DNA of 64,000 nucleotides from Ilex aquifolium (lineage: Eukaryota; Streptophyta; Magnoliopsida; Aquifoliales; Aquifoliaceae). The notes under the pieces were generated by a model. It was not told the DNA's origin and did not search any database. It saw only the letters and a program-made list of their open reading frames with translations. Position numbers and translations under genes: made by a program. Positions within the stretch are counted from its first letter, which is position 1, and each line of letters opens with the position of its first letter. Positions 15,640 through 59,524 of the stretch are shown here, piece by piece. The stretch covers positions 18,557,744-18,621,743 of the forward strand of contig OX637393.1 in the NCBI GenBank assembly GCA_951799425.1. The letters are read 5' to 3'.

Positions 15640-17905
15640 TGTAACGCCCCAAATACCACCCTGGACGGCATTACACTATGAAACCATTCATGTCATGAGA
15701 GCAACTAAATATATATCCATCGAATAAGAAACATTCTTAATTTTAACAAAATTTGGGCAGAGTCTCCTTTGTACAGGAAGCTCCACTCAAAAATCACAAC
15801 CTGTGCAATTCTATTAACTTGACCACACAGGGTCCATTTAACCATCCAATAACAATAAAATTTCTATTTACCATCTATACTATCCTTAACATTATCCCAA
15901 AAGAATAGGCCAGATACGGCAATTACATTCCCCAAAAGAATTACATGAATATATCGCAGCGGAGTTTCAAAAGAATCTAGACTTTACATTGTTCAGAAAT
16001 AAATCTCCTAGTCTAGAACAAAATAAGCTATATCTCTAGATGTCCCATTCGGGATCTAGGTACCCCTCCAAGGAAGCTTCCCCAAGGCCCGGCTCATTCA
16101 CACCGAGCTCCTCCTCTAAAGCCAAATCTGAAAATATTAATTGTAGGGGATGAGCACGAAGCTCTGTAGTAAAATCTTCCCAAACTCAAACAAGGTTTAG
16201 AAAAGCATATAAAACGGTTGGTCTCATTTTCACAAATAGCATATATACCATTTTGAAGGAAAAGCAGGATTTTTTAAATAGATCTCAAGTTTAAACCATA
16301 ACAACAATCAAGTAAAAGAATAAATTAAATTGAACAACAATACACCGTGTCCAAAGTTAGGCCAATTCGGAAGGGCGTCTTCCGATGCATTGTCCCATAC
16401 CAATGCCCCGGCCGAGACGTTCCAACTCATCATCCCAAGTATATTGGTTCATCCCCGTACCATGTATGTTGATTGCTTCTCCTGAATTTACCTAACGGTT
16501 ATACCTAGTCCACCAATCACAATCACATTCACAAGCATTTTAGGAAAGGGCGTCTACCATCCCAATGGCAGTGACGAGTCCCTTCCCAGGAAAAGTATAC
16601 TATCCCTTGTTCGAACTCCAGTGAACGATAGTGGTTTCATTACCAAATGACAACCCACTACAAGTGCTAGGAAACCATCTCATCCCCACTGGGGTAGACT
16701 AACTTCTAACACTCTACGACATCTCTCGAAGGCAATCCAAGTCCCTCACAACAACCATACAATTGAGGAAACCAAAATATTCTCAATTCATCAACATTTC
16801 AAGGAATTACCAAATTCCACAATTTCTAATATAATGTTTCATAATATGATGGAAGAAAATGAGCAAGAGATCATCATAAGTAACATTTTGGTGTACAATA
16901 TCAAACACTAAAGTTTTGAAAGCAATACCAAGAAAAAATAGAGGGAAAAGTCCATTTCTCTTTAAAACCAAGGTTTGAAGATGAAAAAGAGAAATTTAAT
17001 AGTTACCCAACCATCACAATGTTCAAAACATGGCATTTATTTCAAGAGGAACAAGAATCATGTATTTCTTATCATGTATATAAGGATGAGAGTGGAAAAC
17101 ATATTTATATACATAAACCCTAGCCTCAATGTAAGAGATTAGGAAGAAATCCCCTACCTCAATGCTCAAGAGTTTTAGCCAAATACCCAAGCTTCAAGAC
17201 CTTCTTGCTTTCCTTTCTTTTCCTTTTAATCTCCTCTCCCTAGGGTTTTCAAAAGATTTGGGTGAGAGTGGGTGAAGAATGGAAGAAAAGAGAATGAGTA
17301 GAGAAGTGAAATCTTAGAAATCTAGGGTTTTAATCTTCTAAAATGGTGTATCTCTCCTTATCTTTGATGTTCTTCTCTCCATCTCTTTCTCTCTAAAGGT
17401 GCCTAGGGTTTAGAAGGCTGAAATGGGGCTCAAATAGTCGGCCTTAAGTATTTATAGGGAGAGAGAGAGAGGCCGAAATTCGCGACTTTAAAATAAACAG
17501 TCTGGTTTCGGTAGTACCGGTACTCAGTACCGGTACCATTCAGTACCGGTACCCAGTACCGGTACAAGAAACCTTCTGGAATCGGGGGTACCGGTACCAT
17601 TTACCCAGTTTTGCCTATTTCTTTTGTTTTCCATTTCCAATCCATTCCAAAACTAACCAAATCCATCACAAACCTCTCCAACACATATTTATACACCAAA
17701 CCTATCTAATACAAGTTATAGGACCTAACATTTTATATTTTCACTCACTAAAATTAAATTTCAACTATGATTTTCATTAACATTTTAAATCTTTACTTTT
17801 CAAATTTACAAAGTTCAAACACACTTCAATACCCCTATCCACATCTTTACAATCATTATTTGCTATATCTATATATCTATATGAACGAAAATGCGGGGTG
17901 TTACA
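15640..17905 (-). mobile_element. Solo LTR copy 1 (2.27 kb, gypsy), TSD AGATC
   Basis: The sequence begins TGTAACGCCCC and ends GGGTGTTACA, and is flanked by AGATC at 15635-15639 and 17906-17910. The orientation is inferred from homology to the plus-strand LTRs at 45-58 kb, whose 3' end reads GGGGCGTTACA before a primer-binding site. U3 is about 450 bp, and R-U5 about 1.8 kb. On the minus strand U3 holds a palindrome array, then a CT-rich run and TATAAATA (17449-17456). No internal region remains, so it arose by LTR-LTR recombination. It interrupts copia integrase. Confidence 0.88.
17449..17597 (-). promoter_or_regulatory. LTR promoter with class I palindrome array (5 x GTACCGGTAC)
   Basis: Five perfect GTACCGGTAC palindromes lie at 17514-17597, with centre spacings 13, 16, 13 and 32 bp. 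The TATA box TATAAATA is on the minus strand at 17449-17456, about 58 bp downstream of the array. Each palindrome has a central CpG. Confidence 0.85.
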
Positions 17906-18566
17906 AGATCTATGTGCCACTAAGTGTACATTCCTTGGTTACTCTCGCATGCAAAAAGTTTACCCTTGTTACAGTCCTACACTTAGGCGATACTTTACTT
18001 GTGCTGATGTCAGCTTCTGGGAGTCTACCCCCTATGTCTCTGCACCATCCATTCCTTTTGATTTTCACTCTGACTCCTCTTCCTTGCCTATTTCCCTTCC
18101 TCTACCAACTCTAGGTCCCCTTCCCTCTCTTGAGCCACCTCGTGTTAGTATCTCCTCATGTAACTCCCACCACACCATTACGTGTCTATTCTCATCAGTT
18201 GAAACCACCAACACCTGCACCTGCTCCAATTCCACCACCAGCTTCCTCGTCGTCTTCGGATCTTGCCACTTCAGCACCGATAAACTCCCTATTGATTGCT
18301 CTTCGTAATGGTATTCGTTCCTGTGTTACTAACCATCCTATTGGTAATTTTATTTCTTCTCATTCGTTATCTCCAGTATTTTCTTGTTTTATCTCTCAAT
18401 TATCTACTATATCTATTCCTAAGACTGTCTGAGCTGCCCTCTCTGATCCACATTGGAGTCAAGCTATGGAAAAGGAGATGCATGCACTCTATGACAATCA
18501 CACTTGGGATCTTGTTTCGTTGCCTCCTGGTAAGCAGATTGTTGGGTATCGTTGGGTTTACACCAC
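17906..18566 (+). pseudogene. Copia element 2 integrase C-end and RT start, broken
   Basis: The frame resumes after copy 1 with LCATKCTFLGYSRMQKVYPC and RRYFTCADVSFWES, the integrase C-terminal block. A Pro/Ser-rich linker (PPTPAPAPIPPPASSSSSD, near 18200) is followed by HWSQAMEKEMHALYDNHTWD and PGKQIVGYRWVYTT, the entry into reverse transcriptase. It stops at 18566 where LTR A is inserted. The linker reads in a different frame. Confidence 0.8.
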
Positions 18567-20487
18567 TGATGAGCACAAAATATTGTATATTTCAATGCCT
18601 CATTACATGCATTTTAACTCAACTTTTGCATCTAAGTACTCAGAGTTAGCCGATTTTATGAATAATGTTGAATTCTCGATGTTGCATGTTTTTATAGCTT
18701 AAATCATGTATTTTAGGACCTTGCAACTATGATGGATGTGTGGTGAGGGCATGTACACATTACATGAAGATTTGGAGGCTTAAAAGTGAAGAAATCAAGG
18801 AGGTATTGGTGTTTGGGAACAAAAGCGCCAGCAGCCACACCACTGGGTTGAAGAGCCTCGGTTTTCCTCCATTTTGACCATGATCCACTTCGAATCTGAA
18901 AATGTTCAAAACATGAAAGTTGTAGATTTGGATGTCTTCTATATTGTGTCAAAATTTCAGCTCAATCGGACGGTTAGATCAAAAGTTATGCCAATTCTAC
19001 GAAGAATGATCCGGAGTAGAAAAACCGTGCCGGTACGCCGTACCGGTACTGTACCGTACCGGTACTGTACCGTACCGGTACTCAGTACCGGTATGCCGAA
19101 GCTACTGGTGTACGAAAGTACCGGTACGGTACAGTACCGGTACTCAGTACCGGTACGCCGTGCCGAACAGCCCAAAAACGCCTGTAACTCATCTCCACTT
19201 GCTTGGGGGTCCCACCTACACTTCTCCCACTTGCCCCCCAACATTTCCTTACACATTTCCATGCCTCCCTTACACAATTAAAAGAATTTGGAGGCCATTA
19301 CATTAATGAGGATGGGAGAGAAGGGGTAGCCTGGGGGAGGCTTGTCCTAGCCTGCAACACCCATCCATTCAGCCCCCTATTGATGGAGGCCTTTCACACA
19401 GCTAGGGGGGACCACCATGCACGAAATTGAAGGCTAACTCTCCATTATATTCAGCATTCAACAAGCATTCAAGGGGTGGCTACCTAAGCTTAGTTTTAGT
19501 TCCATGTAGAAGATGATAAATAGTGTAATGTAAGTTTATGTTTTTGCATTTTCCTTTCCATTTCAATTGTTGTAAGCTTTAAACTTCTTGTAATCTTCAT
19601 TCCTTGCACTTTAATCTAGTTTATTCCAAGTTTACTTGCATGTTCTTTATTTCACCATTGTTGCTTCAAGTTTTCTTCATTTCATCTTTTAAAATGGGTA
19701 TTGCATATTTTCCTTCATAGCTTTAGATTTCTTGCTTCAAGTTAAGTTTCATGCTTTAAATCTTCATTTCTCTACAATGTCTTTCATTTACATTATGCTT
19801 GTCTTCCTTTTACCATGAGTAGCTAGATTTTAAGTTGGTTAATCCAAGGGAGAACTCCTCTTGGGTGTGCCACTTCAACTCATTTTCATTCCTGCTCTCA
19901 GAGTACGATGGCTCGGTTTGACTGGGTTGGGGTGAGGACATGGTTGTGAGTTCTTGATACACCATAGGCATTGTCACGGGGTATGCTTGAATCCTCACCT
20001 CCATTTTAGTCCCGAGCTTCCCACCAATCAATCGTACTTCTAGGCTCTATTGGAGGAAGGCTTGAGTTGATTTGGTATTCCCATTGGAATGACCTCTTTG
20101 GATTAGCCAACACTTGTTTTTATTTCATTTTCATTAAGAACACTATCACAAACCAAACTCAAAACTCAAAAGATTTTACACTTCTCTTTTGTTCACTAAA
20201 ATCACCTTCACACACTTGAACTTTCCTTCCCTGAGAAGACGACCTTGGAATACTTTTCCAAGTAAAACACCGACACACAAAAGACTCTTTGCGATTGGGG
20301 AGCACTTTTGTTCACACACCCACATTTCATTCACATTTTGTTCATTCCATTTTCCATCAATCCGTTGTTGCCTAATCTCTTGCATCACCCCGAGGGAGAG
20401 TGACACTCCCTTTCACACATAAGCCATATACACATGTCAAATGGTGATGTTTAGGGGTTCGGAACAACAACGTTTTTTCATCAATCA
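18567..20487 (+). mobile_element. Solo LTR A (1.92 kb, Tat-like gypsy), TSD ACCAC
   Basis: It starts TGATGAGCACAAAATATTG and ends TTTTTTCATCAATCA, and ACCAC flanks it at 18562-18566 and 20488-20492. Removing it rejoins the copia RT frame exactly. A related LTR B lies at 43.99-60.64 kb. Near its 3' end it has a GAAGACGACCTTGGAATAC stretch of the kind seen near Tat/Athila LTR ends, which sets the orientation. It carries a class I palindrome array at 19027-19163 and, just upstream, a block of about 100 bp (18897-18993) shared in inverted orientation with the 2.3-kb LTR family. Lineage assignment is moderate, insertion is firm. Confidence 0.82.
19027..19163. promoter_or_regulatory. Class I palindrome array (6 perfect GTACCGGTAC) in LTR A
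   Basis: Six perfect copies plus partial ones. Centres are spaced 16, 16, then 13 to a one-base-imperfect copy (at about 19089), then 33, 16 and 13 bp. This is the same 13/16 rule as in solo LTR copies 1-3, which belong to another LTR family. No clear TATA box follows. Confidence 0.82.
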
Positions 20488-24269: not shown

Positions 24270-25742
24270 TTCTCTTTTTGGGCAAGTTTGTTTGAGAATA
24301 CAAGGCTAAATTATGAAATGATAAGAAAGGAGTTGAAAACGTAGTAGCAGATCACTTGTCAAGGCTAAATTATGATATAAAGGAAGAACCAATTCCAAGA
24401 AGAGAAACCTTTCCAGATAAGCAACTTTTTGCAATAACAGAAGTACTATGGTATGCAGATATAGCCAATTATTTAGCTATTGATACTATTCCTTCTCATT
24501 ATACCTGGACTGATAAAAATAAGTTTCTGAATGAGGTACGTAATTTTTTTTGGGAAGATCCTTATTTGTTTAAATATTGTAAAGATCAAATAATAAGACG
24601 CTGTGTACCTAATCATGAAATTGGTTAGGTAATTTAGTTTTGTCATTCTGAAACTTGCGGATATCATTTTGCTTCAAAGAAAACCGCTGCTAAAATTTTA
24701 TAGTGTGAATTTTATTGACCAACTCTTTTCAAAAACGTACATTTCTTTTGTTTAAATTGTGACAGATGTCAAAGAATTGGAAATATTTCAAAACGAAATA
24801 TGATGCCTTTAAACCCTATTTTAATTGTTGAAATTTTCGATTGTTGGGGCATTGATTTTATGAGACCATTTCCCCCGTCCTTTGGATATTTGTACATTTT
24901 GGTTGCAATTGATTATTTCTCTAAATGAGTAGAGGCAATTCCATATAGAAATAATGATCACAGAACAGTTGTCAAGTTTTTAAAAGAAAATATTTTATCC
25001 AGATTTGAAATTCCTCAAACCATTATTAGTGATGGTGAATCACATTTCTGTAATAAATTTTTTGAATATTTTATGAAAAAATATTTGATTTCTCATAAAA
25101 TATCCACTCCGTATCATCCACAGACAAGTGGACAAGCTGAATTAGCTAATAGGGAGATAAAATATATTTTAGAAAAAAATAGTGAATCCAGATCGTAAAG
25201 ATTGGTCTTTGAGATTAACTGATGCACTTTGGGCTTACTGTACTGCATATAAAACTATTTTAGGAATGTCTCTTTATCGGTTAGTTTTTGGTAAACTATG
25301 TCACTTGCCTGTAGAATTAGAATATCGAGCATATTGGGTAATCAAAATGATGAATTTTGATATGGATAAAGTTGGAGTATCTTGCAAACTTCAAATTAAT
25401 GAATTGGAAGAATTAAAAAATGAAGCATATGACAATGCAAAGATTGCTAAGTCTAGAACAAAAATTTTTCATGATAAATATATCATGCGAAAGTCTTTTG
25501 AACCTTCTCAGAAAGTTCTGTTATATAATTCAAAACTTCTTCTATTTCTTGGAAAATTAAGATCTAGATGGACAGGTCCTTACATTGTCAAGCAAGTTTT
25601 TGATTATGGGGTAGTTGAAATTGAGAATCCATTAACCGAAAATGTTTTCAAAGTGAATGGTCAAAGGCTTAAACCTTATTATGATGGATTCACTCAAGAT
25701 GTAACTTCTATACAGTTGTTAGAGTCAGTCTATGTGTTTTGA
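24270..25742 (+). pseudogene. Element 1 (Athila/Tat-like gypsy): RNase H end and integrase, broken
   Basis: The match starts with KKGVENVVADHLSRL, the end of gypsy RNase H. The integrase zinc-binding region follows (HSETCGYHFASKKTAAKIL, CLNCDRCQRIG). The DDE core is WGIDFM, IISDGESHFCN and QTSGQAELANREIK, and the C-terminal part is [16 protein letters not shown] and [13 protein letters not shown]. Stops are mainly TGG-to-TGA changes, with a frameshift near 25180. From 25182 the frame is open for 186 codons to a TGA-type end at 25742. RT, protease and gag are absent, so element 1 is 5'-truncated. This is the host element of the ORF-Z/ORF-P region downstream. Confidence 0.88.
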
Positions 25743-26127
25743 AAAATTTATATTATTGTTTGATTATAAATAGTAGTACTAATTGTTTGTTATTTATTTT
25801 ACAGATTAGGTTTTATATTATCAGTTATATTACATTCCACACATGATTAGCATTTCTCTATATTTTTACTGTTTTATACGTTGCGGACAATGTTTAATTT
25901 AAGTTGGGGGGAGGGAAACTTATAATGAAACTTATAATGTTTAATTTTTGTCTATGTCATTTAAATTCGTCTTTGTGACTGACATATGTTAAAGAACCGG
26001 ATAGTGAATCAATTTTTCGAGTCATTTTTAAAATTTTTAGAAAGATAATTATAAAATGGACAAGAAACTATTTTGGTTAAGTTTAATTATACTGCGCCAT
26101 TTTTTAAAAGATATACATTCGTTAATC
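25743..26127 (+). other. Spacer with conserved purine-rich tract
   Basis: This noncoding spacer between pol and ORF-Z contains GCGGACAATGTTTAATTTAA followed by GTTGGGGGGAGGG (25883-25915). Element 2 has the same arrangement on the minus strand at 43890-43935. The tract may serve as an additional polypurine primer or a leader for the 3' ORFs; this is inference. Confidence 0.5.
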
Positions 26128-26466
26128 ATGGCAAAAGCTAGACTTGTTAGAAATTTAAAAAATTTTGAAAGTCAAGCAAAACCCTTGTGCGGGAGAAGTT
26201 CATTTGCTAAACGCCGACAAACAAATCGTCTCGGTGGTTGTGTGAGATGTGGTCATTTAATGCATTTGAGACAATATAATCAGTGTGTGGAACCAATTTC
26301 AGGACGAGTGTTTGATCGTCTTGAGTGGATTAGGTATGAGCAGAGTAAGGAATACCCTGAGACGCCATCCTATTCTACTCCTATGTTGTCAAGATACGTG
26401 AGAAGTGAAATTAACCGTGTCACTAGTGTTGTTGATCTAGAAGATTCTGATTATGATCAATTGTGA
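26128..26466 (+). CDS. ORF-Z: small basic Cys/His protein of Athila/Tat-like element 1
   Basis: The open frame gives 112 codons from the ATG at 26128 (the frame is open from 26056, but homology to element 2 starts at this Met). The N-terminus is basic (MAKARLVRN). A putative zinc-binding cluster follows: C21, C38, C41, H43/H46 and C53, in CGRSSFAKRR, then RLGGCVRCGHLMH, then YNQC. The C-terminal part is acidic (VVDLEDSDYDQL). A homologue in element 2 (43328-43648, minus) keeps the Cys/His pattern, the RR tract and the SK.YP.TP.YS motif despite three stops. The protein was therefore under selection. I recognise no named family. DNA or RNA binding is plausible but inferred. It lies between pol and the palindrome promoter. 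Confidence 0.6.
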   Translation: MAKARLVRNLKNFESQAKPLCGRSSFAKRRQTNRLGGCVRCGHLMHLRQYNQCVEPISGRVFDRLEWIRYEQSKEYPETPSYSTPMLSRYVRSEINRVTSVVDLEDSDYDQL

Positions 26467-26978
26467 TCAAATGATGAATAATTTTGAGAATGGTGCATAA
26501 AAAGTAAATAGCTATAGATTAATTGGAAAAATTAGTAAATAATAAATAACAAATAAATAATTAATAAACCAATTTTTTGAAAAAAAAGAGAGAGTAGCAA
26601 GTTATGTGGAATGTGTAAAGTTATAATTAATCTTGTAACTGTAGGATTCTAACTGAAGAAGACAGAAGACCAGGAGTCAGCAACCTGCAGATTGCATGCA
26701 AAATCCAGTGCATCAGCACCGTCCGGACGGTGGTGATGGCGTCCGGATGGTACTGCCACTATAAATATCCACCAGCATGAAAAACCGATCAGTTTCAGTT
26801 CCCTCGCAGGCCAAATACGAAAAACAATGTCCTATTCACTAAATTCCTTCTCAAATCTGCTATATACAATCGTTTTTTTCAAATTTTCTTCAATCAATCA
26901 CTTACCCATATCATTTTGAAGGTTCATACTGATTGAAATCAGTTAAAAGCAAGCAGAGAGAGAGAAATCAGTGAAAAG
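26467..26978 (+). promoter_or_regulatory. Internal promoter of element 1 with class II palindromes
   Basis: CCGTCCGGACGG (26719-26730) and GCGTCCGGATGG (26739-26750, one mismatch) have centres 20 bp apart. They are directly followed by TATAAATAT (26760-26768) and about 210 bp of leader before the ORF-P ATG. The 34-bp block from CAGCACCG through GGCGTCCGGA is the same as in this element's own LTR at about 29981-30014. The upstream part (26467-26700) is AT-rich spacer. Confidence 0.7.
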
Positions 26979-28064
26979 ATGGATCCAAGGATTAGAACGA
27001 GAGGTTCTTCGAGTCGAGCACGAAGAGGCCAATCTCAGTAACCCGAAGCACCTCTGCAACAACCCCAGCCAGGAAATGTTTACAATGTTACGGTATTTGA
27101 GAATGTTGAACAACAGGTTTGCTATGATACTTATTTCATGTCTAAAACTATCATTCCTGAAAGGCCAGTAATTTATGAAGATTTTGAGAATATAGGAGTC
27201 AGACAAATTCTTGCTGCACGTGGATGGCTAGAATATGTTAGATTTTTTGCTCTTGCTTATGATTGTTTGGTTCGTGAATTTTATAGCAATGCACAAATAA
27301 CTGGGGAAAGAGAAATTCGTGTGTTTGTTCGGGGTAGAGTTTTTCAAGTTACACCGGCTACTATAGCTGATATTTTTCAACCTATGCCAAGACATCCCAA
27401 CCCGCAATACCCTTACACACAAGTGCCTTATTTGACCAATGTAAGGATAGAATTGACGGGTAATCCATATTATGTATGGGGAAGGCCACACAAATATATA
27501 AAGTAAGGGGATTTAATGGACAAGTACCGAATTTTGAATTTGATTACAATGAATAGTTTGTTACATGCCTTTGGGATGGGACACACGATCGATCTTCTGA
27601 ACCTCATTATGGATCAAATGTCGATTACTGTGCAAGAAAAGAAACCCTCACTTCCATATGCTATGTTAGTTTCACAGTTATGCAGAGATAAGGGAGTGAT
27701 TACAGATCCCTTGTGGCAAACAGTGGAGCATTTTGCACCATTAGACAAGACTTCTTTGAAGAAAAGCCATGAAGTTCAACTCGAGGAGCAACCTAAAGTA
27801 CCACCAGCACCACAAGAGGAGCCATTCCAAGTACTTGAAGAGTTTTTCCCACTAGAGCAGCCTCCGCCATAAGAAGATTAGTCGTATATACCAGTGGATG
27901 ATAGGACTGAAAGACAGATTTTACTAGGGTTAGAGACCACTGTTACTCAGCTTGGGACCAGCATCACCCAGATCAATCAACGTATAGCTGATTATGAGCA
28001 AAACCAGGCTGAAATATTGAGGCTACTCAGAGAGCGTTTTGGTGGAGGTCCATCTAATTCTTGA
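26979..28064 (+). pseudogene. ORF-P of element 1: 3' ORF with plant-transposon-protein-like domain
   Basis: One frame runs from the ATG at 26979 to TGA at 28062-28064. Only four in-frame stops break it (27039, 27504, 27870 and 27879), and there is no frameshift. The central domain contains RGWLEYVRFFALAYDCLVRE, FYSNAQ and VRGRVFQVTPATIADIF. This resembles the 'putative plant transposon protein' domain found in gypsy elements (PF20167, from memory). The C-terminus has a Pro/Glu-rich linker and a short coiled coil (ITQINQRIADYEQNQAEILR). It sits at the place of the env-like ORF of Athila elements, but I see no signal peptide or transmembrane segment. The function is unknown. A homologue is at 40929-42522. 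Confidence 0.65.
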
Positions 28065-47784: not shown

Positions 47785-49284
47785 ATGGACGGTGAACGTG
47801 TACGTGGACGAGGGCGTGGTCGTGGTCGTGGAGGGCAAACAAACCCACCACCGCCACGACCTCCCGATGCAATTAATGGCATCTATTAGTGTTTGAGGGA
47901 GCTCACCACTCTGGTACAACACCAGAATGGGAACAACCATAATGGTGGGGCTCATCCACTAGCCCAAGTACCGGGCAACGGAGAGGAGAATAGGAGAATG
48001 GTAGTCCTCCGAGAATTTCTGAGGCAACACCCGCCTACTTTCCAAGGGAGCTCTAACCCCTTGGATGCGGATAAATGGATCCGCCGAGTGAAGAAGATAT
48101 GTGATGGCATGGGGATAGCCGAGGATCTTCAGGTCGGCTTGGCGACTTATCTATTCGAGGGGGAGGCCGACCATTGGTGGGACTCAGTGAAAAGAAGGAG
48201 GACCACGGATGCACTCACTTGGGAGGAATTTGACCAAATTTTCCAAGACAAGTACTTTCCGGAATCAGTAAGAGACAGAATGAAGGCCGATTTCCTTGCT
48301 CTCCGACAGGGCAGCATGACGGTGATCGAGTATGAGAGGAGTTTTGATGAGCTATCCCGTTATGCTACAGAGTTTATATCTACTGAGGCCAGCAGGGCCA
48401 AGCGCTTTGAGCAGGGCTTGAGGCCTGCTATCCGGGAGAAGCTGGTGGCTCTCAAGATCCGGGAGTATGGGGACCTAGTTGACCGAGCTGCATTGGTGGA
48501 GAGAGATATAGAGGATAGCCAGCGGCGACAGAGCTTCGCGAGAGGAGGTCCGATCAGGATGGACCCTAGCACCAGTGGAGTGCAGCGAGCAGCACCATAC
48601 CGAAGTCCAGACCAGGCAGGTGGACAGAGACTTCTGACGGCTCGAGGAGATGAAGTGACTCAAACTAGAACAAGAACTGACCCGCGCCAATGCTTTGCAT
48701 GCGGAGAGTATGGGCACTTCAAACATAGATGCCCCTCGTTTCCCCCAAGGACCAAACAAGCAACCGAGCAAGTACCAGTAAACAAGCCACCTCTACAAAG
48801 GCCAGCACAGCAGATACCTCAGATAGCTCGAGGAGCGGGAGGCGTACCAGAGAGAGTAGGCACGGATGCACGCCGATGCTTCGCCTGTGGAGGTGTTGGG
48901 CACTTCAAAGATAATTGTCCATTGCTTTCCACCAAGACCAACCGAGCAACTGGGCGAGTGAATGCAAACAGGCCACCGCTACGACAGCCATTACCACCAC
49001 AGAGACCGTTACAAGCTCATGCCCCCGGTGGCACCAATCAAGGAAGGGTTTTTGCCTTGACTCAACCGGACGAAGATGCCTCCAACGCCATTGTGGAAGG
49101 TATTGTTCTTTTCTATCATTCTTGGGCCCAAATTTTATTGGATTCTTATGCGACTCATTCTTTTGTACGTACTGCATATGCTGTGAAATTTGGATTGGGT
49201 TTCGAGGAAATAGAACTTACGGTATATGTTAATTTGTCTACGGGAGAACAAGGGGATACCAGTAGGGTTATTATATATATGTAA
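47785..49284 (+). pseudogene. gag-protease start, internal region a, with one nonsense codon
   Basis: Same product as the copy at 52922, but codon 35 is TAG (47887-47889) where the other copy has CAG. The rest is open to 49284. It contains the Gag core (DALTWEEFDQIFQDKYFPES and YERSFDELSRYATEF) and two CCHC knuckles (CFACGEYGHFKHRC, CFACGGVGHFKDNC). A truncated protease start follows, with Asp-Ser-Tyr. A start at the next Met would skip the Arg/Gly-rich N-terminus. Confidence 0.85.
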
Positions 49285-49924
49285 TCTTTGACTCTAAATT
49301 ATATCTACTTGCTAGGAAATCATCATGTCTTGTCATTCTTGTTAATATTACCTTGTTCTAAAATATATTATGGTTGGGTAAACTCTAAATCTTATCTTAT
49401 GCCTTCACAACCCTAGTTTACACAGGAGATGTGTTTTTCTCTTGATTTCTCATTTGTTCTTGATTCCAAACCTTAAATCTTATCTTGTTTTAACTATGTT
49501 ATGCTTGGGTAACCACTAATTCTCGTTGTATGCCTTCGAAACCTTAAGTTTCAAGGAAAAGTGGGTTTTCTCTTGATTCCTTCCTTGTTCTTGAGATCTA
49601 AACTTGATATTCATTTGTCATTGAATTCTAACCTTGATATTCAATTGTCCTTGAGATCAAAACTTGTTATTCATTGGTTACTGAATTCAAACCTTAATCT
49701 TCAATGGTTCTTGAGATCAAAACTTGTTATTCATTTGTTATTGAATTCTAACCTTAATATTCAATTGTTCTTGAGATCTAAACTTAATAGCCATTCATTC
49801 TTGATTCCAAAGCTTGATTATTTACTTGTTCATTGAATTCAGCACTCTAGTGATTTGTATTGACCAATAAAAAGGGTATTTCCGATGATATTATGTTAAT
49901 TTTTCTTAAAATTATTTCGTTTGA
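49285..49924 (+). other. Noncoding filler replacing pol, with about 60-bp tandem repeats
   Basis: Between the protease start and the integrase end, RT, RNase H and the integrase core are missing. Instead there are about 640 bp of LTR-leader-like sequence. Tandem units of about 60 bp start TTGAGATCTAAACTTGATAT or similar (about 49590-49780). The 91-codon frame at 49561 only reflects this repeat. An identical filler is in the second unit at 54422-55061. Confidence 0.75.
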
Positions 49925-50414
49925 AAAAAAAAAAAAAGAAAAAAAGAAAAAGAAAAAAGTATGTGGATTTGGGTCGCCTAAGAAAGGAGTGTTTAGATTC
50001 GGCAAGAAGGGCAAGTTAGCGCTACGATTTACCGGACCATTTGAAGTGATTAAAGTCGTGGGCAAGGCGGCGTATCAGTTGCGGTTACCAGCTCAACTAT
50101 CCGGGGTGCAAGATGTGTTTCACGTGTCGATGCTGAGGAAGTGCAATCAGATACAACGCCGGTCGTAGATTTGGAAGATATTGAAATTCAAGACGGAGCA
50201 ACCTATGAAGAACAACCGGTGAAGATTCTCGACTCCAAGGAGAAGGTACTTCGCAACAAAGTCATCAAATTGGTGAAAGTCTGGTGGCAACATCTTGGAG
50301 CGGTAGAAGCTACTTGGGAACCGGAGTTAGAGATGCGGGAGAAGTATCCGTATTTATTCACTACTCGACGATTAAGTTTCGAGGACGAAACTTTCTTTAA
50401 GGGGGGTGGATTGT
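49925..50414 (+). pseudogene. Integrase C-terminus with chromodomain-like end, unit a, frameshifted
   Basis: After an A-rich tract the frame encodes KLALRFTGPFEVIKVVGKAA, YQLRLPAQLSGVQDVFHVS and MLRKC. A 1-nt deletion near 50141 (GTGCAATC against GTGTCAATC in unit b) shifts the frame before the VIKLVKVWWQHLGAVEATWE end. That end is a degenerate chromodomain-like tail of the chromovirus type, which guides integration in relatives. Confidence 0.8.
50398..50411 (+). other. Polypurine tract, unit a
   Basis: TAAGGGGGGTGGAT directly precedes TGTAAGCC of LTR-b. It is the plus-strand primer site. Confidence 0.85.
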
Positions 50415-52733
50415 AAGCCCCCACATATTTATATTAATATGAGGATATAATTGTGTTGTAATTCTAAGGTAAGAAATGACGTAAGAATGAATCACATAGA
50501 TTATAATAGTAGAAATAAATAATTGGGAGACGAATTGATTGAGAAGTTTAAGTTTCGAAGGTGTTTAAACTCGGAGAAGGGTTATTAGATAAGTCTCTAA
50601 ATATTTTTAGGTCAAAATAAGGTTTTCATTGAGTCCGGAAGGTCAAAAAACTTTGGGAGAGGTAATATGAGGTGTATTAGAAGTTAGGAAGTATTTTGGA
50701 GTTAAAACACATTTTAGAGAAAATTTGGGAATTTAGGATTTTGGACACTATTTAGTATTTTGGCCATAACTGTTTATCCTTAAGTCCAATTGATCTGAAA
50801 TTTTTATAGTAGATAGTAGACATCTAGGGCTACAAAAGTGTGTCTTATGAAAAGTTTCCAATTCGACCTCTAAATAGGTGAAAACTGCTTTGGAAGTTGG
50901 GACAGAAAGCTGGGACAGAGAGTTGCCAGCGTCCGGACGTCCAAGGCACCGTCCGGACGGTACCATTAATATATACCCAGATCAGTTCGCGATTTTCCCC
51001 AATTCTTGCTTTCTAAATACACCAAAACCGCCTCCTTCACCCCATTTTCCCCATTTCTAACCCTAGAGAGCTTTGGGGGAGGAAGAAGGAAGAGGATTCT
51101 CACCTCAAAGTAGATCAATCCTAAAGGTCTTCACACCAAACTAAGGAAGAGGTAGGGGTTTTCTCTCACTCTCTCACATTGAGGCTAGGGCTATATATAT
51201 ATATATATATGTATATACATATGTCTCCTTCTCTAAATCTTGGATATGTGTTAGGGAAATCTTTGATTCTTTATATTTTTGCAATCAATGCCATGTTTTG
51301 AACCATGTGATGGTTTGGTAACCATTTTATCTTTCTTTTTCATCTTCAATCATTGATTTGTAAGGAAAATGGACTTTTCTCTTGGTAATTCCTTGGTTTT
51401 CACTTTCAAAACTTATAGTTTTATATTGTGCAACAAATGATGTTTATAATGATCTCTTGCATTTTTCTTAGTTGGTTATTGAAAATGTCGCATGCTATAT
51501 TTGGGGATTTTTGAGATATGCTTATAAATTGGGTAAATTGGTTTGATATTGTATCTCTAATGGGTGTGGGATGACCATGGGTGTCCTTTGACGAGATGTC
51601 GTAGAATGGGTTAGTGCTTTGGTAATACTAATCCATTCGTAGTGGGATTAGTGCTTTGGTAAGACTAAACCACTATCGCTCACGTGGTGCCGTGTAAGAG
51701 GGTTAGTATACTAATGCCTGGGTTGGATTTCGTCACTGCCATTGGTATGGTACACGCCCTTCCTAAAGGTTGGATATCTTTGATAAGATGTGTGTGTGGG
51801 TGTGGGCAAGACGTTACTCAATGTGTCGATTCATGTGGATGCCTTACATCATTGTTGAGATACATGTACATATATTGTCGGAAATGTTCAAGTGTGAGTT
51901 ATCGTTTATTGTACCAAATACGATTTCTGCAAGAGTTTTGGGGTAGTATGGGATGCCACAAGAACTTGTGGAAATGGTGTATGGTGGGATGGATTATGTT
52001 TTGGGAATTGATTCTTATTGGTATATTGTGTTCATTTATTCTTTTAATTATCGTGGTTCCTTAAACTGGAGATCTATTTAAATGCCCTGTTTTCCTTCAA
52101 AAGTTCTATACTATATTTGTGAAAATGAGACCGACCGAATTTTAAATGTTTTCTAAACCTTGTTTGGGTTTGGGAGAAATTTTCTACAGAGCTTCGTGCT
52201 CACCCCCTACCGCTAATATTTTCAGATTATATACTTGAGGAGGAGTTGGGAGTCGAGGAGCCCGCATATTGGGAGACTCCGATCGACGGGAGTGTAGATC
52301 CCGAGGTGGACATGTAGAGATATAGCTTCTTTTGTACTAGACTAGAGAGTTTATTTGGAGATCATGTAAAGTCTAATATTTTGTTATTCCGCTGCAAGTG
52401 TACTTTAATTCTCTTGGAATGTAAATGCCATTGCTTGACCTATTCTTTTGGGATGATAGTGTGGATATGATATATGGTGAATGGAAGTTTATTTTATGAT
52501 GGATAAATGGACCCGGTGTGGTCAATAGTTATGCATATGTGAACCCGGTGTGGTCAATTGTAATATAATTGTACAGGTTGTGTTTTGGGTAGAACTCCCC
52601 GTGCAAAGGAGACTCTGCCCAAATTTTGTTAAATTAAGGACCCCCTGTTATTTATGGGTTTTTATTAGTTGCTCTCATGGTATAAATGGTTTTAGAATGT
52701 AATGCCGTCCAGGGTGGTATTTGGGGCGTTACA
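50412..52733 (+). repeat. LTR-b of tandem array
   Basis: 2322 bp, nearly identical to LTR-a. Class II palindromes are at 50930-50939 and 50950-50959 with the TATA-like sequence just after. It serves as 3' LTR of unit a and 5' LTR of unit b. The (TA)n tract near 51192 is the shortest of the three. Confidence 0.92.
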
Positions 52734-52736
52734 AAG

Positions 52737-52750
52737 TTGGTATCAGAGCC
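52737..52750 (+). other. Primer-binding site, internal region b
   Basis: TTGGTATCAGAGCC, 3 bp after the end of LTR-b. Confidence 0.9.
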
Positions 52751-52921
52751 TAGGCTTTAGGTCTTACATGGGAGCTGTAGGTTATGGATCACCACTAGAG
52801 CCTTAGGACCAGGTTGGATAAAAATTCTTGAGTTAGATTTTCACACGTCCTATGTTCTAGATTAAAGTGATAGTGGGATATCTTGTACATCAATGAACTA
52901 AGTTGTATATTGATGTGCAGG

Positions 52922-54421
52922 ATGGACGGTGAACGTGTACGTGGACGAGGGCGTGGTCGTGGTCGTGGAGGGCAAACAAACCCACCACCGCCACGACCTC
53001 CCGATGCAATTAATGGCATCTATCAGTGTTTGAGGGAGCTCACCACTCTGGTACAACACCAGAATGGGAACAACCATAATGGTGGGGCTCATCCACTAGC
53101 CCAAGTACCGGGCAACAGAGAGGAGAATAGGAGAATGGTAGTCCTCCGAGAATTTCTGAGGCAACACCCGCCTACTTTCCAAGGGAGCTCTAACCCCTTG
53201 GATGCGGATAAATGGATCTGCCGAGTGAAGAAGATATGTGATGGCATGGGGATAGCCGAGGATCTTCAGGTCGGCTTGGCGACTTATCTATTCGAGGGGG
53301 AGGCCGACCATTGGTGGGACTCAGTGAAAAGAAGGAGGACCACGGATGCACTCACTTGGGAGGAATTTGACCAAATTTTCCAAGACAAGTACTTTCCGGA
53401 ATCAGTAAGAGACAGAATGAAGGCCGATTTCCTTGCTCTCCGACAGGGCAGCATGACGGTGATCGAGTATGAGAGGAGTTTCGATGAGCTATCCCGTTAT
53501 GCTACAGAGTTTATATCTACTGAGGCCAGCAGGGCCAAGCGCTTTGAGCAGGGCTTGAGGCCTGCTATCCGGGAGAAGCTGGTGGCTCTCAAGATCCGGG
53601 AGTATGGGGACCTAGTTGACCGAGCTGCATTGGTGGAGAGAGATATAGAGGATAGCCAGCGACGACAGAGCTTCGCGAGAGGAGGTCCGATCAGGATGGA
53701 CCCTGGCACCAGTGGAGTGCAGCGAGCAGCACCATACCGAAGTCCAGACCAGGCAGGTGGACAGAGACTTCTGACGGCTCGAGGAGATGAAGTGACTCAA
53801 ACTAGAACAAGAACTGACCCGCGCCAATGCTTTGCATGCGGAGAGTATGGGCACTTCAAACATAGATGCCCCTCGTTTCCCCCAAGGACCAAACAAGCAA
53901 CCGAGCAAGTACCAGTAAACAAGTCACCTCTACAAAGGCCAGCACAGCAGATACCTCAGATAGCTCGAGGAGCGGGAGGCGTACCAGAGAGAGTAGGCAC
54001 GGATGCACGCCGATGCTTCGCCTGTGGAGGTGTTGGGCACTTCAAAGATAATTGTCCATTGCTTTCCACCAAGACCAACCGAGCAACTGGGCGAGTGAAT
54101 GCAAACAGGCCACCGCTACGACAGCCATTACCACCACAGAGACCGTTACAAGCTCATGCCCCCGGCGGCACCAATCAAGGAAGGGTTTTTGCCTTGACTC
54201 AACCGGACGAAGATGCCTCCAACGCCGTTGTGGAAGGTATTGTTCTTTTCTATCATTCTTGGGCCCAAATTTTATTGGATTCCTATGCGACTCATTCTTT
54301 TGTACGTACTGCATATGCTGTGAAATTTGGATTGGGTTTCGAGGAAATAGAACTTACGGTATATGTTAATTTGCCTACGGGAGAACAAGGGGATACCAGT
54401 AGGGTTATTATATATATGTAA
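52922..54421 (+). CDS. gag with protease start, unit b (intact frame, 499 codons)
   Basis: The ATG at 52922 follows the leader directly and begins MDGERVRGRGRGRGRGG, an Arg/Gly-rich RNA-binding-like N-terminus. The retrotransposon Gag core spans about residues 70-190, and CCHC knuckles start at residues 303 and 365. After an ALTQPDEDASNA linker the aspartic-protease start reads LLDSYATHSF at residue 453: the Asp-Ser-Gly triad has Tyr in place of Gly, in both units. The frame ends 45 codons later without RT. The likely product is a Gag able to form particles but with no active protease, in a non-autonomous element that would need a pol-encoding relative. A further upstream Met at 52883 is less likely. 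Confidence 0.85.
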   Translation: MDGERVRGRGRGRGRGGQTNPPPPRPPDAINGIYQCLRELTTLVQHQNGNNHNGGAHPLAQVPGNREENRRMVVLREFLRQHPPTFQGSSNPLDADKWICRVKKICDGMGIAEDLQVGLATYLFEGEADHWWDSVKRRRTTDALTWEEFDQIFQDKYFPESVRDRMKADFLALRQGSMTVIEYERSFDELSRYATEFISTEASRAKRFEQGLRPAIREKLVALKIREYGDLVDRAALVERDIEDSQRRQSFARGGPIRMDPGTSGVQRAAPYRSPDQAGGQRLLTARGDEVTQTRTRTDPRQCFACGEYGHFKHRCPSFPPRTKQATEQVPVNKSPLQRPAQQIPQIARGAGGVPERVGTDARRCFACGGVGHFKDNCPLLSTKTNRATGRVNANRPPLRQPLPPQRPLQAHAPGGTNQGRVFALTQPDEDASNAVVEGIVLFYHSWAQILLDSYATHSFVRTAYAVKFGLGFEEIELTVYVNLPTGEQGDTSRVIIYM

Positions 54422-55061
54422 TCTTTGACTCTAAATTATATCTACTTGCTAGGAAATCATCATGTCTTGTCATTCTTGTTAATATTACCTTGTTCTAAAA
54501 TATATTATGGTTGGGTAAACTCTAAATCTTATCTTATGCCTTCACAACCCTAGTTTACACAGGAGATGTGTTTTTCTCTTGATTTCTCATTTGTTCTTGA
54601 TTCCAAACCTTAAATCTTATCTTGTTTTAACTATGTTATGCTTGGGTAACCACTAATTCTCGTTGTATGCCTTCGAAACCTTAAGTTTCAAGGAAAAGTG
54701 GGTTTTCTCTTGATTCCTTCCTTGTTCTTGAGATCTAAACTTGATATTCATTTGTCATTGAATTCTAACCTTGATATTCAATTGTCCTTGAGATCAAAAC
54801 TTGTTATTCATTGGTTACTGAATTCAAACCTTAATCTTCAATGGTTCTTGAGATCAAAACTTGTTATTCATTTGTTATTGAATTCTAACCTTAATATTCA
54901 ATTGTTCTTGAGATCTAAACTTAATAGCCATTCATTCTTGATTCCAAAGCTTGATTATTTACTTGTTCATTGAATTCAGCACTCTAGTGATTTGTATTGA
55001 CCAATAAAAAGGGTATTTTCGATGATATTATGTTAATTTTTCTTAAAATTATTTCGTTTGA
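54422..55061 (+). other. Noncoding filler, unit b
   Basis: It is the same as 49285-49924, with the same about 60-bp tandem units (54727-54917), and ends in an A-rich tract at the junction with the integrase tail. Confidence 0.75.
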
Positions 55062-55555
55062 AAAAAAAAAAAAAAGAAAAAAAGAAAAAGAAAAAAGTAT
55101 GTGGATTTGGGTCGCCTAAGAAAGGAGTGTTTAGATTCGGCAAGAAGGGCAAGTTAGCGCTACGATTTACCGGACCATTTGAAGTGATTAAAGTCGTGGG
55201 CAAGGCGGCGTATCAGTTGCGGTTACCAGCTCAACTATCCGGGGTGCAAGATGTGTTTCACGTGTCGATGCTGAGGAAGTGTCAATCAGATACAACGCCG
55301 GTCGTAGATTTGGAAGATATTGAAATTCAAGACGGAGCAACCTATGAAGAACAACCGGTGAAGATTCTCGACTCCAAGGAGAAGGTACTTCGCAACAAAG
55401 TCATCAAATTGGTGAAAGTCTGGTGGCAACATCTTGGAGCGGTAGAAGCTACTTGGGAACCGGAGTTAGAGATGCGGGAGAAGTATCCGTATTTATTCAC
55501 TACTCGACGATTAAGTTTCGAGGACGAAACTTTCTTTAAGGGGGGTGGATTGTAA
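55062..55555 (+). CDS. Integrase C-terminal/chromodomain-like tail, unit b (open)
   Basis: An open frame of about 160 codons follows the A-rich tract. It carries ALRFTGPFEVIKVVGKAAYQ, DVFHVSMLRKC and VIKLVKVWWQHLGAVEATWE. There is no start codon of its own except within the A-rich tract (55058), so it is a pol remnant rather than a gene. The TAA stop (55553-55555) lies within the first bases of LTR-c. Confidence 0.75.
55536..55550 (+). other. Polypurine tract, unit b
   Basis: TTTAAGGGGGGTGGAT-type purine run directly before LTR-c. Confidence 0.85.
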
Positions 55556-56329
55556 GCCCCCACATATTTATATTAATATGAGGATATAATTGTGTTGTAA
55601 TTCTAAGGTAAGAAATGACGTAAGAATGAATCACATAGATTATAATAGTAGAAATAAATAATTGGGAGACGAATTGATTGAGAAGTTTAAGTTTCGAAGG
55701 TGTTTAAACTCGGAGAAGGGTTATTAGATAAGTCTCTAAATATTTTTAGGTCAAAATAAGGTTTCCATTGAGTCCGGAAGGTCAAAAAACTTTGGGAGAG
55801 GTAATATGAGGTGTATTAGAAGTTAGGAAGTATTTTGGAGTTAAAACACATTTTAGAGAAAATTTGGGAATTTAGGATTTTGGACACTGTTTAGTATTTT
55901 GGCCATAACTGTTTATCCTTAAGTCCAATTGATCTGAAATTTTTATCGTAGATAGTAGACATCTAGGGCTACAAAAGTGTGTCTTATGAAAAGTTTCCAA
56001 TTCGACCTCTAAATAGGTGAAAACTGCTTTGGAAGTTGGGACAGAAAGCTGGGACAGAGAGTTGCCAGCGTCCGGACGTCCAAGGCACCGTCCGGACGGT
56101 ACCATTAATATATACCCAGATCAGTTCGCGATTTTCCCCAATTCTTGCTTTCTAAATACACCAAAACCGCCTCCTTCACCCCATTTTCCCCATTTCTAAC
56201 CCTAGAGAGCTTTGGGGGAGGAAGAAGGAAGGGGATTCTCACCTCAAAGTAGATCAATCCTCAAGGTCTTCACACCAAACTAAGGAAGCGGTAGGGGTTT
56301 TCTCTCACTCTCTCACATCGAGGCTAGGG

Positions 56330-56379
<50 letters not shown>

Positions 56380-57890
56380 GTCTCCTTCTCTAAATCTTGG
56401 ATATGTGTTAGGGAAATCTTTGATTCTTTATATTTTTGCAATCAATGCCATGTTTTGAACCATGTGATGGTTTGGTAACCATTTTATCTTTCTTTTTCAT
56501 CTTCAATCATTGATTTGTAAGGAAAATTGACTTTTCTCTTGGTAATTCCTTGGTTTTCACTTTCAAAACTTATAGTTTTATATTGTGCAACAAATGATGT
56601 TTATAATGATCTCTTGCATTTTTCTTAGTTGGTTATTGAAAATGTCGCATGCTATATTTGGGGATTTTTGAGATATGCTTATAAATTGGGTAAATTGGTT
56701 TGATGTTGTATCTCTAATGGGTGTGGGATGACCATGGGTGTCCTTTGACGAGATGTCGTAGAATGAGTTAGTGCTTTGGTAAGACTAATCCATTCGTAGT
56801 GGGATTAGTGCTTTGGTAAGACTAAACCACTATCGCTCACGTGGTGCCGTGTAAGAGGGTTAGTATACTAATGCCTGGGTTGGATTTCGTCACTGCCATT
56901 GGTATGGTACACGCCCTTCCTAAAGGTTGGATATCTTTGATAAGATGTGTGTGTGGGTGTGGGCAAGACGTTACTCAATGTGTCGATTCATGTGGATGCC
57001 TTACATCATTGTTGAGATACATGTACATATATTGCCGAAAATGTTCAAGTGTGAGTTATCGTTCATTGTACCAAATACGATTTCTGCAAGAGTTTTGGGG
57101 TAGTATGAGATGCCACAAGAACTTGTGGAAATGGTGTATGGTGGGATGGATTATGTTTTGGGAATTGATTCTTATTGGTATCTTGTGTTCATTTATTCTT
57201 TTAATTATCGTGGTTCCTTAAACTGGAGATCTATTTAAATGCCCTGTTTTCCTTCAAAAGTTCTATACTATATTTGTGAAAATGAGACCGACCGAATTTT
57301 AAATGTTTTCTAAACCTTGTTTGGGTTTGGGAGAAATTTTCTACAGAGCTTCGTGCTCACCCCCTACCGCTAACATTTTCAGATTATATACTTGAGGAGG
57401 AGTTGGGAGTCGAGGAGCCCGCATATTGGGAGACTCTGATCGACGGGAGTGTAGATCCCGAGGTGGACATGTAGAGATATAGCTTCTTTTGTACTAGACT
57501 AGAGAGTTTATTTGGAGATCATGTAAAGTCTAATATTTTGTTATTCCGCTGCAAGTGTACTTTAATTCTGTTGGAATGTAAATGCCATTGCTTGGCCTAA
57601 TCTTTTGGGATGATAGTGTAGATATGATATATGGTGAATGGAAGTTTATTTTATGATGGATAAATGGACCCGGTCTGGTCAATAGTTATGCATATGTGAA
57701 CCCGGTGTGGTCGATTGTAATATAATTGTACAGGTTGTGTTTTGGGTAGAGCTCCCCGTGCAAAGGAGACTCTGCCCAAATTTTGTTAAATTAAGGACCC
57801 CCTGTTATTTATGAGTTTTTATTAGTTGCTCTCATGGTATAAATGGTTTTAGAATGTAATGCCGTCCAGGGTGGTATTTGGGGCGTTACA
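55551..57890 (+). repeat. LTR-c of tandem array
   Basis: 2340 bp, TGTAAGCCCCC to GGCGTTACA. Class II palindromes are at 56069-56078 and 56089-56098 (centres 20 bp apart). Its (TA)n tract (56331-56374) is about twice as long as in LTR-a and LTR-b and accounts for much of the length difference. Confidence 0.92.
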
Positions 57891-59316
57891 CAAGCTATGA
57901 CATTTACATCTCAAAGGATCAAATGTAACTTAGCAGCGGAATAACAAAAGAAAACTAAACTTCACATGATTTCAAAATAAATTCTCAAGTCTATTACAAA
58001 GGAAGCTATGTCTCTATATGTCCACCTCGGGATCTAGATTTCCCTCGAATGGGGCCTCCCAATACCCCTGCTCGTCAACTCCGAGGTTCTCCTTTAGCAC
58101 CGTATCTGAAAAATGTTAGCGGTAGGGGGTGAGCACTAAGCTCCGTAGCAACATTCCTCCCAAACTCGAACAAGGTTTATCAAAACATACAAAATGGCCG
58201 GTCTCATTTTACAAATAGCATACATAATCTTTGAAGTAAAACAGAGACATTTTAAAATGGATCTCAAGTTTAAGTAGCAACAGTAATTTAAATAAACAGT
58301 AAAAGAAACCAAGATCCAATACATATCCATTTTCCAAAATATAAACCATTTTCCCACAAGACCTTGTGGAATCCCATACTCCCACAAGTCCTTGTAGGAA
58401 ACCATTTTCCACAATAATACAACAATCCATCAATATGTATATGTATCTCAAACATGATGTAAGACACACTCCATGAATCAACACATTGAGTAATATCTAA
58501 CCCACACACACCCACACAAATCTTATCAAAGATATCCATCCTTTAGGAAGGGCGTATGCCACACCAATGGCAGTGACGTATCCAACCCAGGTATTAGTAT
58601 ACTAACCCTCTTACACGGCACCCGTGAGCAATAGCGGTTTAGTCTTACCAAAGCACTAACCCCACTACGAGTGGTAGGAGAAATGGCCACCCACACGGAG
58701 CAAGCAACACGTCTACCCACTCTACGATATCTCGTCAAAGGCCACCCATGGTCATCCAACACTCATAAGAGATACAATACCAAACCCAATTTCACAATTT
58801 ACAAGTATATCTTAAAAACCCCCAATTTTCTCAAGTTGTTGTACAAAGAGCAATATAAGAAAGTGTACAAGAGATCCTCATAAATACCATTTTGTTGTTC
58901 AATATGAAACACTAAAGTTTTGAAATCAAGAATAAAGGAAGAGTTCAAAAGGAAAACCCACCACTCTTGAAAACTAGGGTTTTTCAAACAAAAGAGGGAT
59001 TTCATGGGTATACAACCCTAACTTTGTGTAAAACATGTAATCTTTGTCAAAAAGCCTAAGAGAGGATGATTACATAGCATATATATACCATTGATAGCCA
59101 AAACATACATATATAAATACCCTAACCTCAATGTAAGAGAAAGAGAAGAAATTCCCCTACCTTTCTTCTTCCTAAGTGTTCTTGAAAACTTGGAGTTTTG
59201 ATCTTCTTCAAGGTGCAATTCCTCCTTTGATCTTGTGTTTTCCCCTTCTTTCCTCCTCTCTAAGTCTTCCTAGGGTTATAAATGTTGGAATGAGGCAAAG
59301 AGAGGCGTCCTTATGT

Positions 59317-59524
59317 ATTTAAAGTGGAAGAAATGGCCTCATGTGCGCGATTCTGAAGTTCAGAATTCGTAACTCACGTTCGAACGTCATTGGCGTTCGA
59401 ACGGTCGTTGCTCCCAGTACTTTTGTTTTTCTATCAGACAAGAGTACTGGAACGCACTTACGTTCGAACGTTTATTCACGTTCAAACGTCGATTCACGTT
59501 CGAACGTCGAGTCACGTTCGAACG
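59317..59524 (-). promoter_or_regulatory. Outer LTR promoter with class III palindromes
   Basis: ACGTTCGAACGT (59376-59387) and CGTTCGAACG (59394-59403) are 17 bp apart. Four more sites centred near 59465, 59483, 59501 and 59519 are exactly 18 bp apart; one is ACGTTCAAACGT. TTTAAATA lies about 55 bp downstream on the minus strand (59317-59324). The LTR flanks upstream match those of LTR-a/b/c, but the palindrome class differs. Confidence 0.8.

Follow-up and report, generated by a model that had tools for sequence, protein, structure and literature searches.

We analysed a 64,000-nt stretch of the holly (Ilex aquifolium) genome (GCA_951799425.1, OX637393.1:18,557,744-18,621,743, forward strand; hereafter the window), in which the long terminal repeats (LTRs) of several retroelement lineages carry arrays of 10-bp palindromes. 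By the comparisons set out below, these arrays are enriched, dyad-symmetric, homotypic and positioned, they switch class at a fixed promoter position, and they are exchanged as modules. We hypothesize, with a probability of roughly 0.6, that the palindromes are sites for dimeric sequence-specific regulators, that the homotypic arrays typically lie just upstream of the LTR TATA box, and that the words switch by array exchange or by amplification in place. The protein dimer, the activation and the template switching in this reading are what we infer.

Five words recur: class I, GTACCGGTAC; class II, CGTCCGGACG; class III, CGTTCGAACG; class IV, CTTCCGGAAG; and class V, CTACCGGTAG. A first-pass annotation of this DNA had reported four palindromes that fit a SKWYC-GRWMS consensus; an exact-copy search recovered all four at their reported places, with 27 window copies of GTACCGGTAC, 11 of CGTTCGAACG, 9 of CGTCCGGACG and 2 of CCTTCCGGAAGG, and all four agree with the consensus. 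Class V was absent from that list, surfaced in sampled stretches L020, L022 and L024, and also fits SKWYC. A homotypic array was defined as at least two identical 10-bp palindromes within 300 bp, one- and two-letter words being excluded. The window held 13 such arrays, all 13 of them CpG-centred and made of the four reported classes or of TGTTCGAACA, a symmetric class III variant, while 30 dinucleotide shuffles yielded no CpG-centred array. A sample of 180 kb of other holly sequence, consisting of 18 ten-kb stretches picked by position (L-numbered), contained 14 homotypic arrays, nine CpG-centred (none in the shuffles), four AT-centred and one TA-centred, and 6 of the 18 stretches had at least one class I-V palindrome. 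Chance palindromes are ruled out by the shuffle comparison in the window and the sample. Over these 244 kb, neighbouring palindromes no more than 200 bp apart formed 54 same-class pairs and no mixed-class pair.

The five words together occurred 139,863 times in a genome scan of 800,232,872 bases (103 contigs). Against their reversed-word controls, the counts were 51,910 to 907 for class I, 8,992 to 134 for class II, 32,359 to 278 for class III, 23,874 to 931 for class IV and 22,728 to 353 for class V. A further CpG-centred control, in which the letters of the class I half-site were rearranged, had 93 genome copies, and the words were 26 to 560 times as numerous as the controls. The enrichment of palindromes that the first-pass annotation had proposed as a check is therefore present, both as this genome-wide excess over letter-matched controls and as the excess of window and sample arrays over shuffles. 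The letter-matched controls (93-931 copies) also rule out a general palindrome excess. Words mixing the half-sites of two classes were rare: the I/V mixture GTACCGGTAG had 938 copies on both strands, fewer than the 1,250 of its reversed control and set against symmetric parents at 51,910 and 22,728, and the II/III mixture CGTTCGGACG had 1,265 on both strands (control, 444; parents, 8,992 and 32,359). Some of the mixed II/III words adjoin class II copies, for example at C1:869,067 and 869,045, as expected from C to T decay. The rarity of mixed words shows that the dyad itself is kept, beyond mere sequence; it also rules out independent base change.

Decay of the palindromes bears on the role of the central CpG. 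Among one-mismatch copies near intact ones, C to T at this dinucleotide was the commonest single change (13/27), which suggests that many copies are or were methylated there, and the decayed class III word CGTTTGAACG had 3,978 genome copies, its reversed control 1,836. Such figures favour a reading in which the CpG is the key feature, the palindromes acting as methylation-sensitive switches or as CpG islets that keep LTR promoters unmethylated. We regard this as improbable, since the dyad is kept whole, different words would be needless, AT-centred arrays exist, and class I copies have changed most often at their outermost base (5/10). The class I arrays of one lineage (T, below) also contain AACCTTCTGGAA (near 17,570), which may be the remnant of a class IV site.

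Segment comparison separated four LTR lineages, in our own grouping T, B, C and D, each with at least two classes. Lineage T has LTRs of about 2.3 kb that start with TGTAACACCCC (TGTAAGCCCCC in T4) and end with GGGGCGTTACA or close to it, and it includes classes I, II, III and V. Its internal parts encode gag (Retrotrans_gag), protease and a Tf2-type SH3 domain with a sub-threshold chromodomain match, and TGGTATCAGAGC lies directly after the LTR; these features identify a Ty3/gypsy chromovirus. Three solo LTRs hold class I arrays on the minus strand: T1 (15639-17905, flanked by a GATCT duplication), with five copies of GTACCGGTAC at 17514-17597 and TATAAA at 17451-17456; T2 (about 32496-34812, GGTAC on both sides), with eight copies at 34372-34496 and TATAAA at 34309-34314; and T3 (36277-38573, AAAAG on both sides), with seven copies at 38154-38265 and TATAAA at 38091-38096. 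Class II arrays lie on the plus strand of three chromovirus LTRs: T4 (45273-47596), where two copies of CGTCCGGACG 20 bp apart (45791-45820) are followed after about 10 bp by the TATA-like TAATATATA; T5 (50412-52733; array at 50930-50959); and T6 (55551-57890; array at 56069-56098). Solo LTR T7 (57891-60086 plus 45126-45272) is split by the T4-T6 element and carries a minus-strand class III array of five CGTTCGAACG and one decayed copy at 59377-59524; T7 has TTTAAATA where its relative in L024 has TATAAATA. The LTRs at 15.6-17.9, 32.5-34.8, 36.3-38.6, 45.3-57.9 and 57.9-60.1 kb have a common R/U5 (68-76% identity), and the class II and III LTRs among them also have a common U3 before the array (about 80%).

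Lineage D (25.7-27.0 and 42.1-43.9 kb; classes II and III), which is probably Athila/Tat-like, has a plus-strand class II array of one exact and one decayed copy at 26720-26749, with TATA 10 bp downstream, and a minus-strand class III array with TGTTCGAACA variants at 42745-43035, with TATA 13 bp downstream. Two pol-like pieces, one in the window (25173-25739) and one in L024 (8001-8243), had no domain recognised by Pfam. Lineage C (28.4-30.4 and 38.6-40.5 kb, L006 and L022; classes II and III) has a class II array at 29987-30016 on the plus strand (TATA 53 bp downstream) and a class III array at 38835-39036 on the minus strand (TATA 116 bp downstream). Lineage B comprises repeats at 19.0 and 44.2 kb, L006 and L025, with classes I, IV and, less surely, V; L020 was placed in it by homology that ends about 330 bp before the array of L020. 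The window has two lineage B arrays without a clear orientation: a class I array at 19040-19156, which has no TATA within 150 bp, and a class IV array at 44153-44336, made of CTTCCGGAAG and decayed copies, with TATAWAW 106 bp off on one side.

TATAWAW was found no more than 150 bp outward of 14 of the 25 arrays examined (one on the wrong side), compared with 24% of random positions. This list was compiled by hand and includes L001, L003 and L025, which came from pattern searches. By lineage, the motif accompanied 7 of 12 arrays in T (plus the wrong-side case at 50930), 2 of 2 in D, 2 of 4 in C, 1 of 5 in B and 1 of 2 other arrays, that is, those outside the five classes. The TATAWAW count missed TATA-like variants that occupy the homologous place in T4, T6, T7 and L022.

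Class switching was most apparent among eight lineage T LTRs with one U3 (T4, T6, T7, L001, L003, L022a, L024a and L024b), which gave 21 class-discordant pairs. Each pair was compared with 200 shuffles in three parts, namely 250 bp upstream of the array, the array and 250 bp downstream of it; T5 was left out, and L001 and L003 were included though drawn by a class II search. The upstream segment aligned above shuffles in 21/21 discordant pairs, at 77-87% identity, and the downstream segment in 21/21, whereas the array did so in 1/21; this single pair was class I versus class V, words with eight central bases in common. All three parts aligned in 7/7 same-class pairs of these LTRs. BLAST homology between LTRs broke off at points that ranged from 33 bp upstream of the array to 6 bp inside it. 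In at least three pairs it resumed 40-45 bp past the array, approximately at the TATA box; in others it did so about 100-450 bp past it. The class I arrays of T1-T3 matched that of L022 at 88-92% in 3/3 pairs, while the upstream U3 matched in 0/3. T1 and L024a, of classes I and V, had 89% identity in R/U5 and a U3 that was unrelated beyond the first 80 bp. When T1-T3 were paired with other LTRs, the 21 discordant pairs aligned upstream in no case, over the array in 3 (all class V) and downstream in 9. Homologous flanks around a replaced array, together with a class I array on two unrelated upstream sequences, indicate that the array is an exchangeable promoter module in which the word switches; on these alignments, it is exchanged or rewritten between LTRs.

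Exchange between lineages was assessed from the spacers, with the palindromes masked and similarity expressed as z-scores. Class II spacers were common to C26 (lineage D) and C30 (lineage C) (z 8.6), and class III spacers of L024b and T7 (lineage T) were common to C43 (lineage D) (z 8.2 and 5.9). Between D and C, class III spacers were shared in one of three pairs, C43/C39 (z 4.8); C43 shared none with C022 or C006. The segment comparison detected no LTR homology between C26 and C30 or between C43 and C39. The first-pass annotation had viewed the arrays as a cassette shared by unrelated LTR families, in most cases with a TATA box downstream. The flank and array alignments and the shared spacers uphold the cassette, and the genome-wide enrichment agrees with its interpretation. 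TATA proximity holds for most of T and D and for half of C and breaks down in B (1/5). The families were not all unrelated: a single chromovirus lineage accounts for the 2.3-kb LTRs of classes I, II and III.

A reading without function, in which a small number of founder palindromes multiplied through tandem duplication and along with their host LTRs, would accommodate the repetitive nature of LTRs and the recurring array spacings (class I, 13 and 16 bp; class II, 20 bp; class III, 17-18 bp), of the kind that tandem duplication produces. It would, however, require that five founders were all perfect CpG-centred dyads, that they occupied one promoter position in homologous LTRs, and that the array alone was replaced between conserved flanks; we consider it very unlikely. 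Perfect 10-bp dyads, arrays of strictly one word, a TATA box nearby in three lineages and replacement of the array as a whole fit the upstream sites of a dimeric regulator.

Several observations weigh against the dimeric-regulator reading. The symmetry could partly reflect amplification of few founder words. No shared spacers were found for class V between T and B, for class II between T and C or D, or for class III between T and C (z no higher than 2.1), and class I spacers of T and B were shared weakly (z no higher than 3.7), so that part of the cross-lineage word sharing is not shown to be exchange. Four of the five lineage B arrays had no nearby TATA. Two of the nine CpG-centred sample arrays, of GACACGTGTC and GAAACGTTTC, lie outside SKWYC, and AT- and TA-centred arrays are present in the sample, which means that the SKWYC consensus does not cover all palindrome arrays. 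Single palindromes in the sample exceeded all 30 shuffles when centred on CG (57; maximum, 34), with a mild excess also of those centred on GC (52; maximum, 42) and AT (83; maximum, 77) and no excess of those centred on TA. The half-sites GTACC, CTACC, CTTCC, CGTCC and CGTTC differ by a single base from each to the next; when five half-sites with a final C were drawn at random, 503 of 2,000,000 sets formed such a chain, but within SKWYC 784 of 4,368 sets do, so that it is not rare, and it was spotted after the fact. No plant transcription factor family was matched to all five words.

If the palindromes are regulator sites, each 5-bp half-site would be contacted by one subunit, and the arrays would serve the element as its upstream activating (or anti-silencing) region. 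The word could then change by two routes. An LTR might swap its whole array with that of another LTR, from a related or at times an unrelated lineage, through template switching between co-packaged RNAs or conversion between copies; alternatively, a new word might be amplified in place by short tandem duplication. The binder would be a host factor family with shifting specificity or a factor encoded by the element. LTR promoters commonly recruit host factors, and word sharing across four lineages is as a host factor would give. A version of the dimeric-regulator reading in which many LTRs make opportunistic use of host transcription factors of an ordinary family (with several stress-related or developmental paralogues), without a dedicated system, is thus a serious possibility, to which we give somewhat less than an even chance. 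In a study of Sireviruses, their palindromic motifs matched mostly stress-related PLACE sites (PMC2829016), which also favours this version; it would be unusual for such a family to have strictly homotypic sites, five words that switch and some 140,000 copies, and we could name no single family that fits the five words. A literature search on LBD proteins with TCCGGA returned no paper with that word among the matches listed, and a full-text search for the words returned no retrotransposon title among the matches listed.

The arrays might instead matter as RNA. Inverted copies in U3 would, as has been put forward for the palindromes of maize Sireviruses, form hairpins in the 3' LTR transcript and give rise to small RNAs, and the diversity of words would reflect escape from these small RNAs. 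Five array transcripts folded better than shuffles (z -3.4 to -10.6), and the palindrome regions of maize Sireviruses are described, in the available parts of PMC5311732 and PMC10760457, as small-RNA hotspots of high sequence variability. The folding score does not discriminate, however, because arrays of a self-complementary word fold well whatever their role; moreover, inverted pairs suffice for hairpins, without a need for every unit to be a perfect 10-bp dyad, and the location close to TATA would be left unexplained. We consider this unlikely, if somewhat less so than the CpG-centred reading.

The first-pass annotation knew of no description of such a system. Palindromic LTR arrays before TATA have in fact been described for Sireviruses: in Ty1/copia LTRs of this group, palindromic repeated motifs (RM boxes) lie shortly before the TATA box (Bousios et al. 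2010, PMC2829016). What differs in holly is the Ty3/gypsy setting and the exchange. In both systems a single palindrome recurs many times in the U3 of an element, shortly before TATA, different elements have different palindromes, the motifs are CpG-rich and the flanks are unrelated (PMC2829016), and two Sirevirus words, CGGTCGACCG and ACAATCGATTGT, are CpG-centred without a spacer, like those of holly. The same paper calls the motifs Sirevirus-specific among the elements compared, whereas the holly arrays are found in Ty3/gypsy LTRs (chromovirus and probably Athila/Tat-like); in a profile test that covered lineage T, its elements were not Ty1/copia Sireviruses. The CGG-CCG core signature of the Sirevirus motifs is absent from the holly words: CGTTCGAACG has neither triplet, and in the others CCGG is CCG overlapping CGG, in the other order. 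Several lineages of one holly genome use the same words, exchange arrays and switch class at a homologous position, and word exchange between lineages of one genome is not reported for Sireviruses in the available portion of PMC2829016.

In the VANC/VANDAL anti-silencing system of DNA transposons, an element-encoded protein acts with arrays of short motifs, which also occur in the unrelated AT9TSD1 (PMC5735166, in the text available). The holly arrays resemble these as homotypic motif arrays in non-coding parts of transposable elements that change between related families. They differ in that VANDAL motifs lie in one orientation and have a known protein, whereas those of holly are palindromic and belong to LTR retrotransposons. 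Recombination between distant Athila families is reported to yield new lineages (PMC2410132), in an account whose available part makes no mention of palindrome arrays or promoter modules. By these comparisons, what is new is that a feature once called Sirevirus-specific extends to Ty3/gypsy lineages and that the array moves as a unit. The interplay of retrotransposon promoter and host control is thereby made countable, with five words, homologous LTRs that differ mainly in the word and about 140,000 sites in this one genome. If a binder were found, one could ask whether the elements are rivals for their activator, have it in common or encode it themselves; a retroelement-borne, virus-type binding protein is a concrete candidate.

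This protein is encoded by a 136-aa frame at 26056-26463 (+), 257 bp upstream of the lineage D class II array, that resembles the cysteine-rich nucleic-acid-binding protein (NABP) of carlaviruses (PF05515, 31.5 bits with a cut-off of 23; PF01623, 20.4, just below 20.9). A broken relative at 43355-43720 (-) lies 320 bp upstream of the lineage D class III array (tblastn E 4e-36), and a copy in L024 (8552-8952) has an array 571 bp downstream. Thus 3/3 NABP copies in the window and sample stand 257-571 bp before a class II or III array on the same strand, and the gene was seen beside arrays of these classes only (three copies). The lineage T LTR that follows the L024 copy may be an insertion. Stop-free pieces of the L024 and 43-kb copies scored 23.5 and 25.2 with PF01623, and 20.2 and 20.7, below the cut-off, with PF05515; P0001, P0002 and P0003 scored 44.1, 40.0 and 30.1 with PF05515. 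The holly chromosomes have at least 150 NABP matches (150 were scored out of 4,087 first-look candidates, and none of those listed had an E above 4.2e-61), of which about 45 of the 150 listed are stop-free by a count made by eye. The gene is encoded in these chromosomes beside retroelement LTRs and not in a flexivirus genome. Three relatives from other sources have 63-67% identity. The ratio of nonsynonymous to synonymous change (dN/dS) between the window and L024 copies was 0.6 over 97 codons only, and the frame of the 43.4-43.7-kb copy could not be aligned without gaps. An AlphaFold model of P0001 had a mean pLDDT of 49, too low for the fold to be read. No relatives were found in a viral-contig scan or a PDB sequence search, and a literature search gave no paper, among the matches listed, on a carlavirus-type NABP gene in a retrotransposon.

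According to PMC12172455, the carlavirus cysteine-rich protein (CVB p12) is a eukaryotic transcription factor that also suppresses silencing weakly. Like it, the holly NABP matches PF05515/PF01623, and as in flexivirus gene order, where the gene is at the 3' end, it lies near the 3' end of the internal part of the element. It differs in adjoining a retroelement LTR and in its many chromosomal copies. The holly NABP is a candidate regulator of the arrays. A private holly system can be imagined, in which an Athila/Tat-like NABP would activate or unsilence LTRs through the palindromes, its specificity would drift one half-site at a time, and other lineages would plug in by acquiring a matching array; we think this a long shot.

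The window also records the order of insertion. Over 44153-60561, a lineage B repeat (class IV) received solo LTR T7 (class III), which in turn received the T4-T6 element (class II); 5-bp duplications flank both insertions, CAAGA for T7 and CAAGC for the T4-T6 element. The latter (45273-57890) is a tandem chromovirus of LTR-internal-LTR-internal-LTR structure, with gag-protease frames at 47890-49284 and 52874-54421 and an integrase end, with a Tf2-type SH3 and a weak chromodomain, at 55037-55552. Its internal parts are short, with no room seen for reverse transcriptase, so the element is probably non-autonomous. In this element, tandem repeats of 30 bp at 49525-49878 and 54662-55015 separate gag-protease from the integrase end. 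Frames at 27042-27503 (+) and 41539-42108 (-), each located a few hundred bp downstream from a lineage D array with its TATA, gave sub-threshold matches to PF20167 (Transposase_32). The class III arrays of T and D (42.8-43.0 and 59.4 kb in the window; 9.56-9.62 kb in L024) have in common an inverted repeat around AGTACT, located between the palindromes, that could form a hairpin of its own. In the sample, the GACACGTGTC array (L016 6434-6571) lies inside a tandem repeat, the GAAACGTTTC pair is at L021 9700-9730, and a triple of ATGAATTCAT is at L022 3351-3433.

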